From positions 1 through 38,797 of the forward strand of contig SEEL01000035.1 in NCBI GenBank assembly GCA_004144345.1: a DNA stretch of 38,797 bases, written 5' to 3'. The translations under genes were made by a program, and so were the position numbers. This DNA comes from Hyphomicrobiales bacterium. GTDB taxonomy: Bacteria; Pseudomonadota; Alphaproteobacteria; Rhizobiales; Devosiaceae. Position 1 is the stretch's first letter. Each line of letters begins with the position of its first letter. The notes under the pieces were generated by a model that was given only the letters and a program-made list of their open reading frames with translations, ran no database searches and was not told the DNA's origin. Of this stretch, positions 23,152 to 38,797 are shown piece by piece.

Positions 23152-23796
23152 TCATGGCATGACCCCGAACCAGCCTTCGCTGATGGCGAAATTGACGAGG
23201 CTCGCGCGGCTCCTCGTGCCAAGCTTGTCATAAGCCCGCGCACGGTAGGTTTCGACCGTCTTGATGCCGATCGAGAGCTTGCGCGATATCTCCTTGTTGC
23301 TGAAGCCCTGGGCCACCAGCCGGACGACCATCTCCTCGCGCTCGCTCAGTTCCTCCACCGGCCGCGACAACGCCCGCGAGCCCGGCAGTACCTTGTTGGC
23401 GATGCCCGGATCGACGAAGACGTCGCCGCCCCTGATGCAGCGCAGCGCCCTGAGCAGATCGTCGGCCGCCGTGCGCTTCAGCACGAAGCCGTTGGCGCCG
23501 GCCTTGAAGAACTCGCGCACATAGGTGCTCTCCTCATGCAGTGTCAAAGCGAGGAGCAGGAGGCTGGGCATGGCGGCGCGCAGTTGGCTCACCAGCGCGA
23601 TGCCGGAGCCGCCCGGCAGCGACCCGTCGACGATGACGATCGCGGGCGCTGCGCCAAGCACGCCGGCCAGCCCGGATGCATAGTCGCCGGCATGGCCGAC
23701 GACGTGATACTCGCCCTCGGCTTCGAGCAGGGCGCGCAGGCCCACGACCACGACCGGATGATCGTCAATTAGGTAGACCGGACAGGGAGCGCCCAT
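23152..23796 (-). CDS. NarL/FixJ-type response regulator
   Basis: A 214-residue two-component regulator. The receiver domain has Asp11-Asp12 in YLIDDHPVVV, the phosphoacceptor Asp57 in IVIVDGSLPGG, and Lys in FVLKRTAADD. The C-terminal LuxR HTH is LSEREEMVVRLVAQGFSNKEI, then SRKLSIGIKTVETYRARAYD. ATG 23796 is fixed by AGGAGG six bases upstream; the frame is open further upstream, inside the kinase gene. It overlaps the 3' end of the histidine kinase gene by 32 bp, so the pair is co-expressed. Confidence 0.93.
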   Translation of the reverse strand: MGAPCPVYLIDDHPVVVVGLRALLEAEGEYHVVGHAGDYASGLAGVLGAAPAIVIVDGSLPGGSGIALVSQLRAAMPSLLLLALTLHEESTYVREFFKAGANGFVLKRTAADDLLRALRCIRGGDVFVDPGIANKVLPGSRALSRPVEELSEREEMVVRLVAQGFSNKEISRKLSIGIKTVETYRARAYDKLGTRSRASLVNFAISEGWFGVMP

Positions 23797-25117
23797 GGGA
23801 TACCTCCTCACGCATAGGAAGGTTGACGAACAGCGTGGTGCCGGCCCCCGGGCTGCTTTCGACTTCGAGAGTGCCACCAATCGTGAACAGCCGCTCGGAG
23901 ATCCCGGTCAGCCCGAAATGACGCCCGGCAGTCGCCGGTCGCACCGGGGGCGTGAACCCCAAGCCGTCGTCCTCGACGACAATCCGTAGCTGGCCGTCAT
24001 TCAGCCGGGCGGTCAGGCTGATCGAGCGCGCGTTTGCATGCTTGGCAACATTCGTGAGGGCCTCCTGCACGACGCGGTAGGCCACCAGTTCCGATGTTTC
24101 CGGCAGGCGCTCGGGCAGATCGTCAAGATGCACGTCGACACTGATGGCGAGCCGCTCACCCCAGCCATGCGCCAGTTCCTCAAGCGCGTGGCGCAGGCCG
24201 AAATCGACCAGCACCAGCGGCCGCAGGTCGGCGGTGATGGCGCGGACATGCTTGCTCATCATCTCGACGGTCCGCCGGAACCCGGCGACCTTGGCCTTGC
24301 GGTCCGCGTCCGGGGCGGTGGATTCAAGGCTCTTCAAGCCGATCGACAGGGCTGCCAGATCCTGCCCCAGTTCATCATGCAGTTCGCGCGCGATCCGCAG
24401 CCTTTCGCTTTCCTGCGCGCTGATGACGCCCCGCAGGGCGTTGGTGTTGGCTTCCTCGCTGAAGCGGCGGTCGGATACGTCGCTGAACACAATCACCACC
24501 GAGGATAACGTCCCCGTACTGTCCGACGTCGGGGCCGCGCTGACGGAGAGCCATATCCGCTCGCCGTCGCCGACGCTGACGAGCATGTCTTCGCCATGGA
24601 TGGTCTCGCCAGTCCGCAAGGCGCGCTGGCATGGCCACCGGTCGACCGTATAGAGCTCGCCGGCAGGACTGAAGGCGTCGAAATCCGTGTGCATCGACAG
24701 GTGCGGCGCGTTCGCGCTGCGGAACATCTTTTCGTAATTGTCGTTGCACATCACCAGATCGCGCGCGGGTGTCAGCACGCAAACGGCCGCCGGCATGTGC
24801 TGCAGGACCGCCGCCAATTGCCGCTCGTGCTCAAGCACCTCCTGCTGGGCGGTGAATCTCTCGTAATCGGACTTGATCTCGCGGCGGGCCGCGACAATCA
24901 GCACCGCGCCGGTCAACAGGTTTATCGCAAGAGCGAGGGCGAGGACGACATCGTCGTAGCGGTAGCCCCAGAACGGCATTGTACCGTCGGCGTTGCGGAC
25001 CAGATAGGCGCAGGCGACGGCCGAACTGAGGACAAGGGAGGCGGCGCCGAACCACAGATGACGCATGGGAATTCGGTCACTAAGGCGCGGAGGCTGACCC
25101 GCTCGCTCAACACGCAT
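23765..25117 (-). CDS. NarX/DegS-type sensor histidine kinase
   Basis: A 450-residue membrane sensor kinase. Two hydrophobic segments near residues 19-40 and 57-77 flank a very short periplasmic loop (RNADGTMPFWGYRYDD), so the signal is probably sensed in the membrane or cytoplasm. A PAS domain covers about 95-215. HisKA_3 follows, with the phosphoaccepting His247 in ARELHDELGQDLAAL, then the ATPase with VQEALTNVAKHA (N box), VEDDGLGF (G1) and GRHFGLTGISERL (G2). ATG 25117 follows GAAGG; a GTG at 25144 is the alternative. Partner: the overlapping response regulator. Confidence 0.9.
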   Translation of the reverse strand: MRVERAGQPPRLSDRIPMRHLWFGAASLVLSSAVACAYLVRNADGTMPFWGYRYDDVVLALALAINLLTGAVLIVAARREIKSDYERFTAQQEVLEHERQLAAVLQHMPAAVCVLTPARDLVMCNDNYEKMFRSANAPHLSMHTDFDAFSPAGELYTVDRWPCQRALRTGETIHGEDMLVSVGDGERIWLSVSAAPTSDSTGTLSSVVIVFSDVSDRRFSEEANTNALRGVISAQESERLRIARELHDELGQDLAALSIGLKSLESTAPDADRKAKVAGFRRTVEMMSKHVRAITADLRPLVLVDFGLRHALEELAHGWGERLAISVDVHLDDLPERLPETSELVAYRVVQEALTNVAKHANARSISLTARLNDGQLRIVVEDDGLGFTPPVRPATAGRHFGLTGISERLFTIGGTLEVESSPGAGTTLFVNLPMREEVSHGRSLSGLPN

Positions 25118-25330
25118 CGACAATACCTTCACTGAAGCCGGCACGTCCTCACACGCAGCTTACCACCGGCGCCTCAGCCTAAGATAGGCGCAAAACGGTG
25201 TCTGTCAGGCATTCCCCCAAGCCGTCGGATTTTGCCTCGCACGGCCTCCGAAATGGCCCCGGCCATCACGTCCTGACAAAGCCCGATTTCACCGGGCGCG
25301 TGATCGCCGATGATCAGACGCGGTCACCAT

Positions 25331-25344
25331 GTGGTGATCACCAC
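25331..25344. promoter_or_regulatory. 14-bp palindrome upstream of Asn/Gly cluster
   Basis: GTGGTGATCACCAC is a perfect 14-bp palindrome, 23 bp before the TTG start of the first repeat protein, and sits in a region with further GATC-centred dyads (GTGATCGC, GATGATCAG). It is a candidate repressor or activator site for the four-gene cluster. Confidence 0.45.
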
Positions 25345-25367: not shown

Positions 25368-25706
25368 TTGAAAGCACTGCTTCTCGCGGGCGTCGCCGTT
25401 ATCGCCCTTTCGGGCTACGCCGCCGCCGCCTCAGTTGGCAGCGGCAATGGCAACGGCAATGGCAACGTTGGTGTTGGCAACGGCAATGGCAACGGCAACA
25501 GCAACATTGGCGCGTTCAACGGCAATTGGAACGGCAATGGCAACGTTGGTATCGGCAACGGCAATTCCAACGGCAACGGGAACATCGGCGTCTGGAACGG
25601 CAATTCCAACGGCAACCTGAACCTCGGCGCCTTCAACGGCAACGGCAACGGCAACTACAACTTCGGGTTCAACAACGGCAATTTGAACGGCAACATGAAC
25701 CACTAG
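25368..25706 (+). CDS. Secreted Asn/Gly-repeat protein A
   Basis: A 112-residue protein with a signal peptide (residues 1 to about 21, MKALLLAGVAVIALSGYAAAA). The rest consists of short Asn/Gly repeats such as [27 protein letters not shown] and GVWNGNSNG. Every few residues an aromatic or aliphatic side chain (I, V, F, W, L) sits between the Gly-Asn pairs, in phase with a five-residue period. The NxGxx pattern resembles the Pentapeptide_2/MPTR repeats of mycobacterial PPE proteins, and less so curlin. No Cys. Start is TTG 25368, placed by GGAG at 25356-25359. First of four tandem genes; a beta-solenoid or fibre is plausible. Confidence 0.78.
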   Translation: MKALLLAGVAVIALSGYAAAASVGSGNGNGNGNVGVGNGNGNGNSNIGAFNGNWNGNGNVGIGNGNSNGNGNIGVWNGNSNGNLNLGAFNGNGNGNYNFGFNNGNLNGNMNH

Positions 25707-25798
25707 CAGGCGCCCCCGGAGACGCCAGCCCCAAGGCCTGCGGCCCACCCCCCCGCACCAGGCTGGCGCCTTCGCTCGATGCAACCGGGAGAATTACC

Positions 25799-26227
25799 AT
25801 GAACATCGCGATCATTTCAGCAACCTGCAGTCTCCTGCTGTTCGCGCCGCTTCAGGTCGGAGCCGCCGGGATTGGCAATGGCAACGGCAATGGCAACGGC
25901 AATATCGGCATCAACAACGGCAATATGAACGGCAATTTCAACATCGGGATCGGCAACGGCAACGGTAACGGCAATGGCAATGGCGCTCCCACCACGAACG
26001 GCAATCTGGGCGCGTTCAACACCGGCACCGGCAACATCGGCGCCTTCAATAGCGGAACGGGCAATGTCGGGGCGTTCAATGGCCTGGGCAATACCTCGCC
26101 GACCAGTGGCAATAACAACATCGGTGCCTTCAACGGCAACTGGAACGGCGGCATGTACAACGGCAATAACAACATTGGCGCGTTCAACGGCAACTACAAT
26201 GGCAACGGCAATACGCCGACGCCCTAG
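25799..26227 (+). CDS. Secreted Asn/Gly-repeat protein B
   Basis: A 142-residue protein with a signal peptide ([20 protein letters not shown], cleavage near GAA-G). The body is [17 protein letters not shown]-type repeats, then a middle block with [18 protein letters not shown], a spacer GLGNTSPTSGNN, and closing GAFNGNWNGGMYNG units. GGGAGA at 25787-25792 precedes the ATG. It is closely similar to protein C, signal peptide included, so the two are recent duplicates. Function unknown. Confidence 0.8.
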   Translation: MNIAIISATCSLLLFAPLQVGAAGIGNGNGNGNGNIGINNGNMNGNFNIGIGNGNGNGNGNGAPTTNGNLGAFNTGTGNIGAFNSGTGNVGAFNGLGNTSPTSGNNNIGAFNGNWNGGMYNGNNNIGAFNGNYNGNGNTPTP

Positions 26228-26312
26228 GCGTTGAATATGCGCACCGCCGATGGCTCGACGCCCTCGCCGGTGGGTCAGCGATGGTGCCCCATGCACACGC
26301 GGACTCCGGCAC

Positions 26313-26366
26313 GGCAACGATAACATCGGCGTCTGGAACGGCAATTTGGACGGCAACATGAAGCCC
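26313..26366 (+). pseudogene. Decayed repeat-gene fragment (copy of protein A end)
   Basis: [18 protein letters not shown] reads in frame and matches the last part of protein A (GVWNGNSNG, NGNLNGNMNH). The stop codon is lost and the sequence continues into an intergenic region very like the one between A and B (shared CCGCACCAG and CAACCGGGAGAA). It is a trace of a duplication of [end of A + gap + B], which produced protein C. Confidence 0.7.
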
Positions 26367-26446
26367 AGGGGCACCCGGGAGATCGCCGCATGGCTCGCGG
26401 CCCTCACCGCACCAGACCGGTGCTCGCTTCAACCGGGAGAACGAAG

Positions 26447-26959
26447 ATGAACATCGCGATCATTTCAGCAACATGCAGTCTCCTCCTCCTCGCACCGCTG
26501 CAGGCCCAGGCCGCCGGGATCGGCAATGGCAATGGCAACGGCAATGGCAACATCGGCGTCGGCAACGGCAATTTTAACGGCAGCTTCAACGTCGGCACCG
26601 GCAACGGGAACGGCAATGGCAACGGCAATATCGGCATCGGTAATGGCAACTGGAACGGCCGTTTCAATGTCGGCATCGGTAATGGCAACGGCAATGGCAA
26701 CGGCAATGGCGCGTTCAACACCGGCACCGGCAACATCGGCGCGTTCAACAGCGGCACCGGCAACATCGGCGCGTTCAACAGCGGCACGGGCAATATCGGG
26801 GCGTTCAACGGCCTCGGGAACAGCTCGCCGACCAGCGGCAACTACAACATCGGCGCCTTCAACGGCAACTTCAATGGCGGCACGTACAACGGCAACGGCA
26901 ACATTGGCGCCTTCAACGGCAACTTCAACGGCATCGGCAACACGACCGTGCTGCCCTAG
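26447..26959 (+). CDS. Secreted Asn/Gly-repeat protein C
   Basis: A 170-residue protein, the longest of the set. The signal peptide [20 protein letters not shown] is followed by QAAG and then [20 protein letters not shown]-type repeats. Three copies of the ten-residue unit [10 protein letters not shown] (one variant) form the middle block; protein B has two, so the block expands and contracts. The same SSPTSGN spacer and GAFNGNFNG units close the protein. CCGGGAGAAC precedes the ATG at 26447. Nine bases separate its stop from gene D. Confidence 0.8.
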
Positions 26960-26968
26960 GAGGCTGAC

Positions 26969-27436
26969 ATGAGCCCTGTGCAAAAATGGGTGAGCGTGGC
27001 CCTCATCTTCGGCACGCTCGCCGCGGCTTCAGCGATCATGCCCCCCGCCCATGCGGGGCCCGGCAACAACAACGGCAATGGCAATGTCGGGAATGGCAAC
27101 GGCAACGGCAATTCCGGCAGCAATAACGGCAACAACAATGTCGGCAGCAACAATGGCAACAACAATGCCGGCAACGGCAACGGCAACGGCGTTGTGGGAG
27201 ACAATCAGGGGAACGGCAACGAGAAGGGTACGAGCCGCCCGGCGGGGCTGAAGCTCTGGAACACCGACAGCGGGATCAACGACTATGCGGTGAGCTTTTG
27301 TGCGGCGTGGGTCGCCAGCCACACGACCGGCCACAGCGCGAACATTTCGGCTGCGCGCCCCCTCAAAGCCGCCCTGCCCTTTCCCTGTCTGTGGTGGTAT
27401 TGGCCAGCCGATCTGATCTCGGCCCGGCCGCGATAG
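26969..27436 (+). CDS. Secreted Asn-rich protein D with unrelated tail
   Basis: A 155-residue protein. The signal peptide ends near PPAHA (residue 29). Residues 30-78 are [20 protein letters not shown]-type repeats richer in NN and SNNG than in A-C. From about residue 80 the composition changes to GTSRPAGLKLWNTDSGIND and a Trp/Cys/Pro-containing tail (CLWWYWPADL) with no repeats. The tail looks like either a different domain or a frame read past an original stop. The ATG at 26969 follows AGGAGG at 26958-26963, overlapping the stop of C, so the genes are probably one operon. Confidence 0.65.
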   Translation: MSPVQKWVSVALIFGTLAAASAIMPPAHAGPGNNNGNGNVGNGNGNGNSGSNNGNNNVGSNNGNNNAGNGNGNGVVGDNQGNGNEKGTSRPAGLKLWNTDSGINDYAVSFCAAWVASHTTGHSANISAARPLKAALPFPCLWWYWPADLISARPR

Positions 27437-36812: not shown

Positions 36813-38105
36813 CTAGATCACGTAGACGATAAGCACGCTGCCATCATGGTCGGCAGCGATGACGTCGCTGGGGCTATAACCCTGCGACTGGAGGGCCGCG
36901 CTCACCTTGGCCTGCGCCGCGAGGAAAGCCTGGAGCCGCGCGATGTTCGCATCGCCGCCCACGCTCATCGCGACCTTTTCCATTTGGCCTTCGCACAGGT
37001 CGACCTTCACCACCTTGAGCTGGCTGGCACTGGCCCAACTGTTGAAGGTCGCGCGGCTGTAATTGTGGCGGTTGACCAGCTGCTTCAGCTCATTGGCGCT
37101 GAGCGACAGGCAGGCATCGTCACCGGCCGCCGCGATCAGGCTCCCGCCCGACCCGCCATTGCCGCCACCACCGCCATTGCCGCCGTTACCACCATTGCCA
37201 CCGCCGCCAGTACCACCGCCGCCGGCGCCACCGCTGCCGCCGCCGATGGCCACGTTCACGTCAGTGCCGCCAAGCAGTCCCGTACCAAGCAGGCCGCCAT
37301 TGCCGGTGCCGATGTTTATATCGGCGATGGAGTCGCCATTGAGGACATCGGCACTGATGTCGGTGCCGAGTACATTGGCCGCCACCAGCTCGTCGGTCCC
37401 GCCCAGATCGAGCAGGCCGCCATTGCCGAGATCGAGCAGATCGTCGGTGCTGCCCAGATTGAGCAGCGCTTCATTATCATCGGCGCCCAGATTGAGCAGC
37501 GGATCGGTGCCGTCGAGATCGATCAGCCGGCCGGCGCCGATGCCACCGGTGCTGCTGAGGTCAATCACATCGTCGTCACCGAGCAGCGCCAGATCGACCG
37601 CGCCATCGCCGAGATCGAGGAAGCCGGCGCCCAGATCGAGCAGGCCGCCCTCGCCGCCGAGGTCGAGCACATTGCCGGTGCCACCGAGGTCCAGCAGGTC
37701 ACCGCTGCCACCCAGATTGAGCAGCGCCGCATCGTCGTCGTTACCGAGATTGAGCAGCGGGCCATTGCCATCGAGATCGATCAGCCCGTTCGTGCCGCCG
37801 AGATCGAGCACATTGCCGGTGCCGCCCAGATCGAGCAGGCCGCCCTCCCCGCCACCACTGCCGAGCACATTGCTCAGATTGACGGTCACGCCGCCATCGA
37901 CGCTGGCGCCGTCATCCTCGCCGCCCGACCCGCCGAGCAGATTGCCGGTGTCGATGCCGAGCGTGGCGTCCGCATTATTGTCGTTGCCGAGATCGATCAG
38001 CGGACCGCTGCCGCCGCCGAGATTGAGCGACAGCGCGCTTGCGGGCAAAACACCGACCGCCGTCGTCAGCAGCACAATCGCTGAAAGTTTGAGATACTTC
38101 CTCAC
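36813..38105 (-). CDS. Secreted LDLGG-repeat protein with Gly-rich linker and C-terminal domain
   Basis: A 430-residue exported protein. The signal peptide covers residues 1-25 (MRKYLKLSAIVLLTTAVGVLPASA). Residues about 25-240 are imperfect repeats of roughly 9-12 residues around LLDLGG, LIDLDG and LLNLG, alternating with Asp/Asn/Gly turns. This pattern suits a beta-solenoid, perhaps binding calcium. A poly-Gly/Asn linker follows (near 285-325). The last ~100 residues form a globular domain with two Cys (DDACLSLS, VDLCEGQM) ending DVIAADHDGSVLIVYVI, which resembles the end of the next protein. I do not recognise the family. Adhesin or surface matrix role is possible. Confidence 0.72.
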   Translation of the reverse strand: MRKYLKLSAIVLLTTAVGVLPASALSLNLGGGSGPLIDLGNDNNADATLGIDTGNLLGGSGGEDDGASVDGGVTVNLSNVLGSGGGEGGLLDLGGTGNVLDLGGTNGLIDLDGNGPLLNLGNDDDAALLNLGGSGDLLDLGGTGNVLDLGGEGGLLDLGAGFLDLGDGAVDLALLGDDDVIDLSSTGGIGAGRLIDLDGTDPLLNLGADDNEALLNLGSTDDLLDLGNGGLLDLGGTDELVAANVLGTDISADVLNGDSIADINIGTGNGGLLGTGLLGGTDVNVAIGGGSGGAGGGGTGGGGNGGNGGNGGGGGNGGSGGSLIAAAGDDACLSLSANELKQLVNRHNYSRATFNSWASASQLKVVKVDLCEGQMEKVAMSVGGDANIARLQAFLAAQAKVSAALQSQGYSPSDVIAADHDGSVLIVYVI

Positions 38106-38316: not shown

Positions 38317-38797
38317 TCACAGCAGATAGAGCACCGGCCGCCCGTTCTTGTCGATGTCGATGCCGATCACGCGGTTCATGTTGCTGAAGTTCAGTGCCGT
38401 CACCTGATTGCGGCAATTGGCGAGCAGTTCGCGCAGCGCATAGATGTCGTAGGAGTGGTTGGCGAGCGCCTGCTGCAGCGTGCTCCATTCGCTCTTCTTG
38501 ATCACCCAGTTCGCGGCATCGGCAATCGCGAAATTGTTGAGGCACACCGCCCTGCCGTTCGACAACTGCAGATAGTCGCGCTCGGCGAGCATGCGCAGCA
38601 GCGTACGTAGCCGGCTCGAAATGCCGTCCGGGATCACGAAGCTGCCGCCGCCGCCATTGGCGCCATAGCCGCCACCGCCGCCCGGACCACCGGGACCGCC
38701 CGGCCCACCAGGGCCACCGGGGCCACCATTGCCACCGCCGCCCCCGGTGCCACCACCGCCGCCACCAGTCCCACCGCCGCCCGAGCTGCCGCCCAAT
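38317..38797 (-). CDS. Gly-rich secreted-type protein, N-terminus beyond the window
   Basis: The C-terminal 159 residues of a protein whose start lies to the right of the window. It begins in a Gly-rich linker with GGTGGGGGN and collagen-like GGPGGPGGP runs, then YGANGGGGS. A domain of about 100 residues follows with Cys in GRAVCLNNF and ANCRNQV; its end VIGIDIDKNGRPVLYLL matches the LDLGG protein's ending (VIAADHDGSVLIVYVI). The two are paralogues in layout: Gly-rich repeat plus the same C-terminal domain. A signal peptide is expected but not visible. Confidence 0.65.
   Translation of the reverse strand, partial: LGGSSGGGGTGGGGGGTGGGGGNGGPGGPGGPGGPGGPGGGGGYGANGGGGSFVIPDGISSRLRTLLRMLAERDYLQLSNGRAVCLNNFAIADAANWVIKKSEWSTLQQALANHSYDIYALRELLANCRNQVTALNFSNMNRVIGIDIDKNGRPVLYLL

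Follow-up and report, generated by a model that had tools for sequence, protein, structure and literature searches.

Asn/Gly-repeat genes with signal-peptide-like segments form a recurrent A-B-C module, possibly for a surface matrix, in scattered alphaproteobacteria

The nonapeptide of the RTX beta-roll is GGxGxDxUx, in which GGxGxD constitutes the calcium motif. Pentapeptides of the XNXGX type define the Pentapeptide_2 family (PF01469) of mycobacterial PE/PPE-MPTR proteins; according to a 2016 paper (PMC4858275), 95% of the Pfam sequences of this family occur in mycobacteria. The curli system comprises the CsgA and CsgB subunits with CsgG, CsgE and CsgF, and PMC3521004 describes many alphaproteobacteria with curlin genes in which only the subunit genes are identifiable. 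As to export, PMC5985334 describes the MacAB-TolC system of E. coli as carrying a small periplasmic protein, delivered by Sec, to the outside.

Here we compare with these systems a gene cluster of a member of the Devosiaceae, contained in a 38,797-nucleotide stretch of DNA (hereafter, the window). Among the titles and abstracts listed in literature searches, which covered few subscription journals, none describes the proteins, designated A, B and C, or their family.

Three types of repeat gene in the window

A sequence-only reading of the window had proposed four adjacent secreted Asn/Gly-repeat genes at 25368-27436. All four (Table 1) do lie on the same strand within this interval, and the products of A, B1, B2 and C, the only ones inspected for this feature, each open with a hydrophobic signal-peptide-like segment that ends in an AxA-type site, as judged by eye. 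They represent three protein types rather than four, B1 and B2 being duplicates with 84% identity. The 219 bases separating B1 from B2 hold a decayed tail of gene A, whose local alignment score is 122 (the best of 200 shuffles reached 43). Since the decayed A end and the A-B spacer sit between B1 and B2, the simplest reading is a tandem duplication of an A-B unit, followed by loss of one copy of A, the second. Gene A itself is preceded by a GGAG sequence upstream of its start, and its homologues were recovered in a multiple alignment.

Table 1. Coordinates of the features in the window and, where a locus is named, in other loci
Feature	Coordinates	Strand	Description
LuxR/NarL-type response regulator	23152..23880	-	ORF overlaps the end of the kinase ORF
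PAS sensor histidine kinase	23765..25144	-	divergent from gene A
TGTCAGG element	25203..25209	+	kinase-A intergenic region; second copy on the reverse strand, 25272-25278
Overlapping inverted repeats TCACCATGTGGTGATCACCAC	25324..25344		upstream of A
Gene A	25368..25706	+	112 aa, TTG start; signal-peptide-like segment and 13-residue units (NhGxx NGNx NGNx)
Gene B1	25799..26227	+	142 aa; signal-peptide-like segment, 4-4-5 block, pentapeptide block, 4-5-4-5 block
Decayed remnant of gene A 3' end and A-B spacer	26307..26441	+	72% identity to 25643-25793 (blastn)
Gene B2	26447..26959	+	170 aa; duplicate of B1 with two extra 13-residue units
Pentapeptide_2-like block of B2	26705..26821	+	PF01469, 34.1 bits (cut-off 26.4), fragment scanned alone
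Gene C	26969..27436	+	155 aa; signal-peptide-like segment, 9-residue units (NxGxx NGNx), non-repetitive tail
Fourth protein, other loci	L010:9736-10374, L027:476-1102, L028:4054-4893, L049:8887-9510, L050:6695-7318, L051:6824-7447		short Asn/Gly stretch and conserved cysteine-bearing domain

The description of these proteins as almost pure Asn/Gly suits the repeat parts of A (72% N+G) and B1 (63%) but not C, where about 60 repeat residues are followed by about 68 of ordinary composition. The C tail has a third-position GC of 0.82 and is not conserved among the C proteins of relatives, in an alignment of 17 of the 19 that left out the C-type proteins of loci L016 and L019, assigned by position. 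A simple counting method gave dN/dS values of 0.31 when A was compared with its same-genus copy, 0.19 between B1 and B2, and 0.11-0.23 when A, B1 and part of C were compared with locus L009. Silent changes per site therefore exceed amino-acid changes over the five comparisons (0.11-0.31).

Elsewhere in the window, two more ORFs with Gly-rich stretches lie on the minus strand (36813-38105 and 38317-38796); the former has a signal-like segment at its start and gave no NCBIfam match.

Pentads, tetrads and known repeat families

The repeats of A, B and C can all be written in two words, a pentad (NxGxx) and a tetrad (NGNx). A reads 4-4-5 (period 13) and C reads 4-5 (period 9), while the B proteins of the window run through 4-4-5, then 5-5-5-5, then 4-5-4-5. 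The hydrophobic residue seen at every fifth position in the sequence-only reading is thus a feature of the middle of B1 and B2 only, and does not extend to A or C with their different periods. Among 19 A proteins, 103 spacings between successive NxG heads were of exactly 13 residues, against a shuffle mean of 0.5, a regularity that does not arise by chance. Spacings of 9 numbered 33 in 19 C proteins, a count that has no shuffle value beside it, and 20 B proteins gave 45, 38, 35 and 35 spacings of 13, 5, 18 and 9, respectively. The two words cover 93% of A (48% when shuffled), 85% of B (48%) and 57% of C (42%), the figure for C including the non-repeat tails. The rule was composed after viewing the first set of sequences and then applied unchanged to five later loci, where it covers 96% of A in all five, 87-92% of B, 44-62% of C and 76-80% of extra A-like genes (shuffles, 22-51%). 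The grammar thus also holds in five loci not used in composing it.

Of 21 B proteins, 15 have all three blocks (4-4-5, 5-5 and 4-5). In L016, L019 and L024 the B protein lacks the 4-4-5 block, in L013, L017 and L027 it lacks the 4-5-4-5 block, and in L047, one of the later loci, it has no spacing of 13; B is therefore not always a hybrid. In B of L012, L013, L017, L025, L027 and L028 and in A of L012 and L025, the repeat region opens with a CxxC motif, which is absent in the window.

Scanned as whole proteins against Pfam and NCBIfam, A, B1, B2 and C gave no credible match. The likeness to Pentapeptide_2 put forward in the sequence-only reading holds for part of one protein: the XNXGX block in the middle of B2 passes the family cut-off when scanned alone (Table 1), but none of the four whole proteins gives a match. 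The other fragments scanned fall just below the cut-off of 26.4 (B1, 24.6; L009, 25.5; L014, 23.4). As whole proteins, 2 of 21 B sequences match at E<=1 (best, 0.00069) and none of 19 A sequences does; an Aureimonas fusion protein of the YadA type (see below) passes in its entirety. In contrast to PE/PPE-MPTR proteins, A, B, window C and three fusions show no match to the N-terminal PPE domain (PF00823; Pfam scans of C proteins covered that of the window). Moreover, the pentapeptide is confined to one block of one of the three proteins, A and C being built of 13- and 9-residue units, and all are small, stand-alone proteins of alphaproteobacteria.

RTX beta-roll proteins offer a further comparison. 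C has a period of 9 and B one of 18, and one relative joins B repeats to a type I secretion (T1SS) signal. However, the calcium motif was not seen in the repeats on inspection by eye, A, B and window C gave no RTX-type Pfam match, and no T1SS gene was recognised beside the module.

A recurrent module and its neighbours

Scanning species genomes with B2 identified 20 loci in 19 genomes, with record titles that include Methylobacterium, Bradyrhizobium, Aureimonas, Rhizobium, Mesorhizobium, Pseudaminobacter, Aestuariivirga, Afipia and Paracoccaceae. The order A-B-C on one strand is found in 16 of the 20, counting L016 and L019, whose C was assigned by position (in L019, beyond a LuxR-type gene). 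As for the others, L012 has A on the opposite strand, L013 starts too near a contig end to show A, no C was found in L027, and L023, which shares its genome with L013, consists of a lone fusion. An order-level profile search supplied six loci; one (L052) proved to be L018 again, and the five new ones all carry A-B-C, three of them belonging to one genus and having an extra A-like gene. In a genome of the window's own genus (G010), A and the beginning of B are readable, and the sequence beyond them reads N. A-B-C is thus a recurrent module in scattered alphaproteobacteria.

The module is also rare and patchy, as few genomes match in any of the searches. At E<=1e-10, a limit of our own choosing, and with the own genome counted, the B profile matched 7 of 397 genomes sampled in the order, 1 of 385 in the class and 3 of 398 in the phylum; these counts are minima because only some first-look candidates were scored in each genome. 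Among 61 near relatives, B2 matched two, its own genome included. Plasmid records gave no match to B2. The matches listed from virus contigs include one A-B-C set (L059:529-1940) on a 5.6 kb contig, which could be cellular DNA or a mobile carrier. Also among the listed matches from the virus collection, L060, L061 and L062 have NxGxx runs in other kinds of protein, with preceding N-terminal regions that are alike in L060 and L061 and different in L062, so that this pentapeptide is put to use in further settings. A fourth protein lies near or beside the module in six loci (Table 1); its L010 copy has no Pfam or NCBIfam match and its L049 copy no NCBIfam match.

In the window, gene A diverges from a kinase/regulator pair (Table 1); this pair had gone unnoted in the sequence-only reading, as had the recurring gene order, the three repeat periods and the MacAB genes at other loci. 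Tblastn with regulator references from L009, L017 and the window found a LuxR-type regulator in 17 of the 20 loci of the genome scan (the exceptions being L023, L027 and L028), and the window, the same-genus locus L029 and all five new loci have one too, LuxR-type genes being generally common. A histidine kinase divergent from A accompanies the regulator in the window, L029, L009, L011, L014, L016, L022 and L047, although L011 and L047 gave only a partial match to it and L016 one divided between two frames; L020 has the regulator and no kinase match. When 37 genomes were searched (19 of the own genus, four others of the family and 14 others of the order), the kinase was found at E<=1e-60 in two, the same two that carry the module. 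Partial matches at E<=1e-40 occur in three genomes of the order, none of them among the B-profile carriers of the order search, and the six other carriers from that search show no kinase match at this level. These three non-carriers and six carriers speak against a strict tie between kinase and module.

The intergenic region between kinase and A contains a short element on both strands (Table 1). Among nine intergenic regions that separate a kinase or regulator gene from A (type I), GTCAGG is found in all nine and TGTCAGG in seven; in 100 approximate shuffles, no 6-mer reached nine and no 7-mer reached seven. TGTCAGG is absent from the 11 other upstream regions. Common ancestry of the intergenic regions may account for part of this sharing. 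Closer to A, the overlapping inverted repeats of the window have a counterpart, TCACCACATGGTGA, which in the same-genus locus precedes A by 45 bases (44 in the window); no similar inverted repeat was listed for the other 17 loci compared. A promoter and terminator scan gave no signal above shuffles.

A MacA-like gene is found in nine of 19 loci and MacB in eight (L023 being left out of these counts), 0.14 loci with MacB being expected by chance. The nine loci come from few lineages and so do not represent nine independent events. Neither gene is beside the module in the window, in L029, in the remaining ten of the 19 loci or in the five new ones, and the MacB match of the own genome lies on an unlinked contig (C77). 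Because MacAB-TolC can export a Sec-delivered small protein (PMC5985334), this neighbourhood suggests an exit route. The link between MacAB and the repeat proteins as its substrate, drawn from gene neighbourhood, is a putative one.

The absence of a carrier domain, as claimed by the sequence-only reading, is borne out for the window proteins but not for three relatives, which join B-type repeats to surface or secretion domains. A 520-aa Aureimonas protein, whose gene is separated by about 0.5 kb from that of the regulator in its locus, combines the repeats with a YadA head, both domains above their Pfam cut-offs. A protein from a record titled Bradyrhizobium ends in a T1SS C-terminal signal above the NCBIfam cut-off, and a Paracoccaceae protein whose gene adjoins B and C ends in a VPLPA-CTERM tail close to the cut-off (24.3 versus 25.35). 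The fusions support, without proving, an outside location of stand-alone A, B and C.

A putative surface matrix and the alternatives

The whole is best explained, in our view, by a module for a regulated, exported, beta-rich surface matrix or fibre, an interpretation on which we are evenly divided between acceptance and doubt. The window genes would be the local copy of a patchily distributed secreted-matrix module. We infer that the kinase and the LuxR-type regulator switch on the divergent A-B1-B2-C genes, probably via the TGTCAGG sites. A, B and C would enter the periplasm by putative Sec signal peptides and then reach the outside; in the relatives with MacAB, exit would probably occur via MacA/MacB-TolC. 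Outside, blocks of pentads and tetrads, each opening with Asn and having Gly at a fixed place, might stack into beta-rich coils, and these assemble into a matrix or fibre. A, with its 13-residue units, could be the main polymer, and C, with its 9-residue units and individual tail, another component. B usually combines the two periods with a pentapeptide stretch and might serve as a subunit that joins or nucleates. In favour of this interpretation are the recurrent gene order, the grammar, the dN/dS values, the neighbouring regulators, the shared TGTCAGG element, the MacAB genes near some copies, the three fusions and the low charge of A. Speaking against it are the weak structure models (see below), the many loci with no MacAB beside the module, the loose tie between kinase and module, the B proteins that lack a block and the variable C tails.

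A more specific version, which we advance tentatively and consider unlikely in its full detail, is a block-copolymer surface fibre in which A contributes turns of 13 residues, C turns of 9, and B acts as an adaptor that splices or nucleates both, the whole being exported by MacAB in some lineages. The adaptor role would rest on the layout of most B proteins, in which the A period is N-terminal, the pentapeptide is in the middle and the C period comes after.

Alternatively, the proteins might form a secreted, disordered, water-holding gel or protectant against desiccation or cold, with no ordered fibre. We regard this as doubtful, but it accommodates several observations. The proteins are very rich in Gly and Asn, and most A proteins are nearly uncharged (charged residues make up at most 2% of the repeat part in 16 of 19). 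Structure prediction for A and B2 yielded no confident fold: AlphaFold2 gave mean pLDDT values of 62.9 and 51.5, respectively, from alignments that left out L029. Of the 15 Foldseek matches to the A model, none reached E<=0.001. In PDB sequence profiles B had no match, and A had four weak ones, headed by lysozyme (E 0.047), which were taken as chance. Against a gel, the spacings of 13, 9, 5 and 18 are exactly kept across many genera, which a disordered coil would not need, and in A the NxG position often carries a hydrophobic or aromatic residue.

Regular beta-solenoid proteins that bind ice, a polysaccharide or a mineral surface, and are released as single molecules, are a further possibility, although an improbable one. 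Known ice-binding solenoids have flat faces, with which the Asn rows and short regular turns of the repeats could be compatible by analogy. However, the keeping together of three proteins of different period suggests assembly, and no sequence match to solved ice-binding proteins was obtained.

A divergent curli-type amyloid, with A and B as CsgA/CsgB-like subunits exported by CsgG or, where this is missing, by another route, appears more improbable still. Like curli, the module consists of neighbouring, small, secreted-type Asn/Gly-rich repeat genes in tandem with a possible nucleator. The own genome has CsgG and three of 20 other carriers have a CsgG match, and absence of CsgG would not by itself exclude curli, since many alphaproteobacterial curlin loci are found without other Csg genes (PMC3521004). 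The sequence-only reading was right that no curli secretion gene is nearby within the window; the own CsgG is on another contig. Yet the Curlin search that it recommended found no match in 19 A proteins, 21 B proteins and window C, and the QXGX2N motif was not seen in the repeats by eye. Furthermore, 17 of the 20 other carrier genomes, including that of the same genus (G010, the only one of known completeness), have no CsgG match in a survey from which L023 was left out. The own CsgG adjoins separate Q/G/N-repeat genes, as judged by eye, and, unlike curli, the module has a kinase/regulator pair or a LuxR-type gene beside it, and MacAB in some loci. Sequence comparison thus makes a curli identity unlikely. 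The CsgG locus of the own genome (L035:6521-15343, contig C16), in which CsgG was recognised by profile and is followed by several Q/G/N-repeat genes, resembles a separate curli-type locus.

Finally, replication slippage might maintain low-complexity sequence that has no function as protein. This would fit the tandem repeats present in the DNA of the cluster and the decay of one A copy, but it is hardly credible and already disfavoured by the dN/dS values in all five comparisons and by a gene order conserved beside regulators in many genera.

If the matrix or fibre interpretation is correct, scattered alphaproteobacteria would make an extracellular material from proteins in which two amino acids predominate. 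A dedicated two-component system would probably control it, and Pfam and NCBIfam do not recognise it in the whole proteins of the window. The pentad/tetrad code would then amount to a natural design rule for repeat materials, and some MacAB-type pumps would gain a natural structural-protein substrate. Should the block-copolymer version hold as well, the module would represent a new class of regulated bacterial extracellular fibre.
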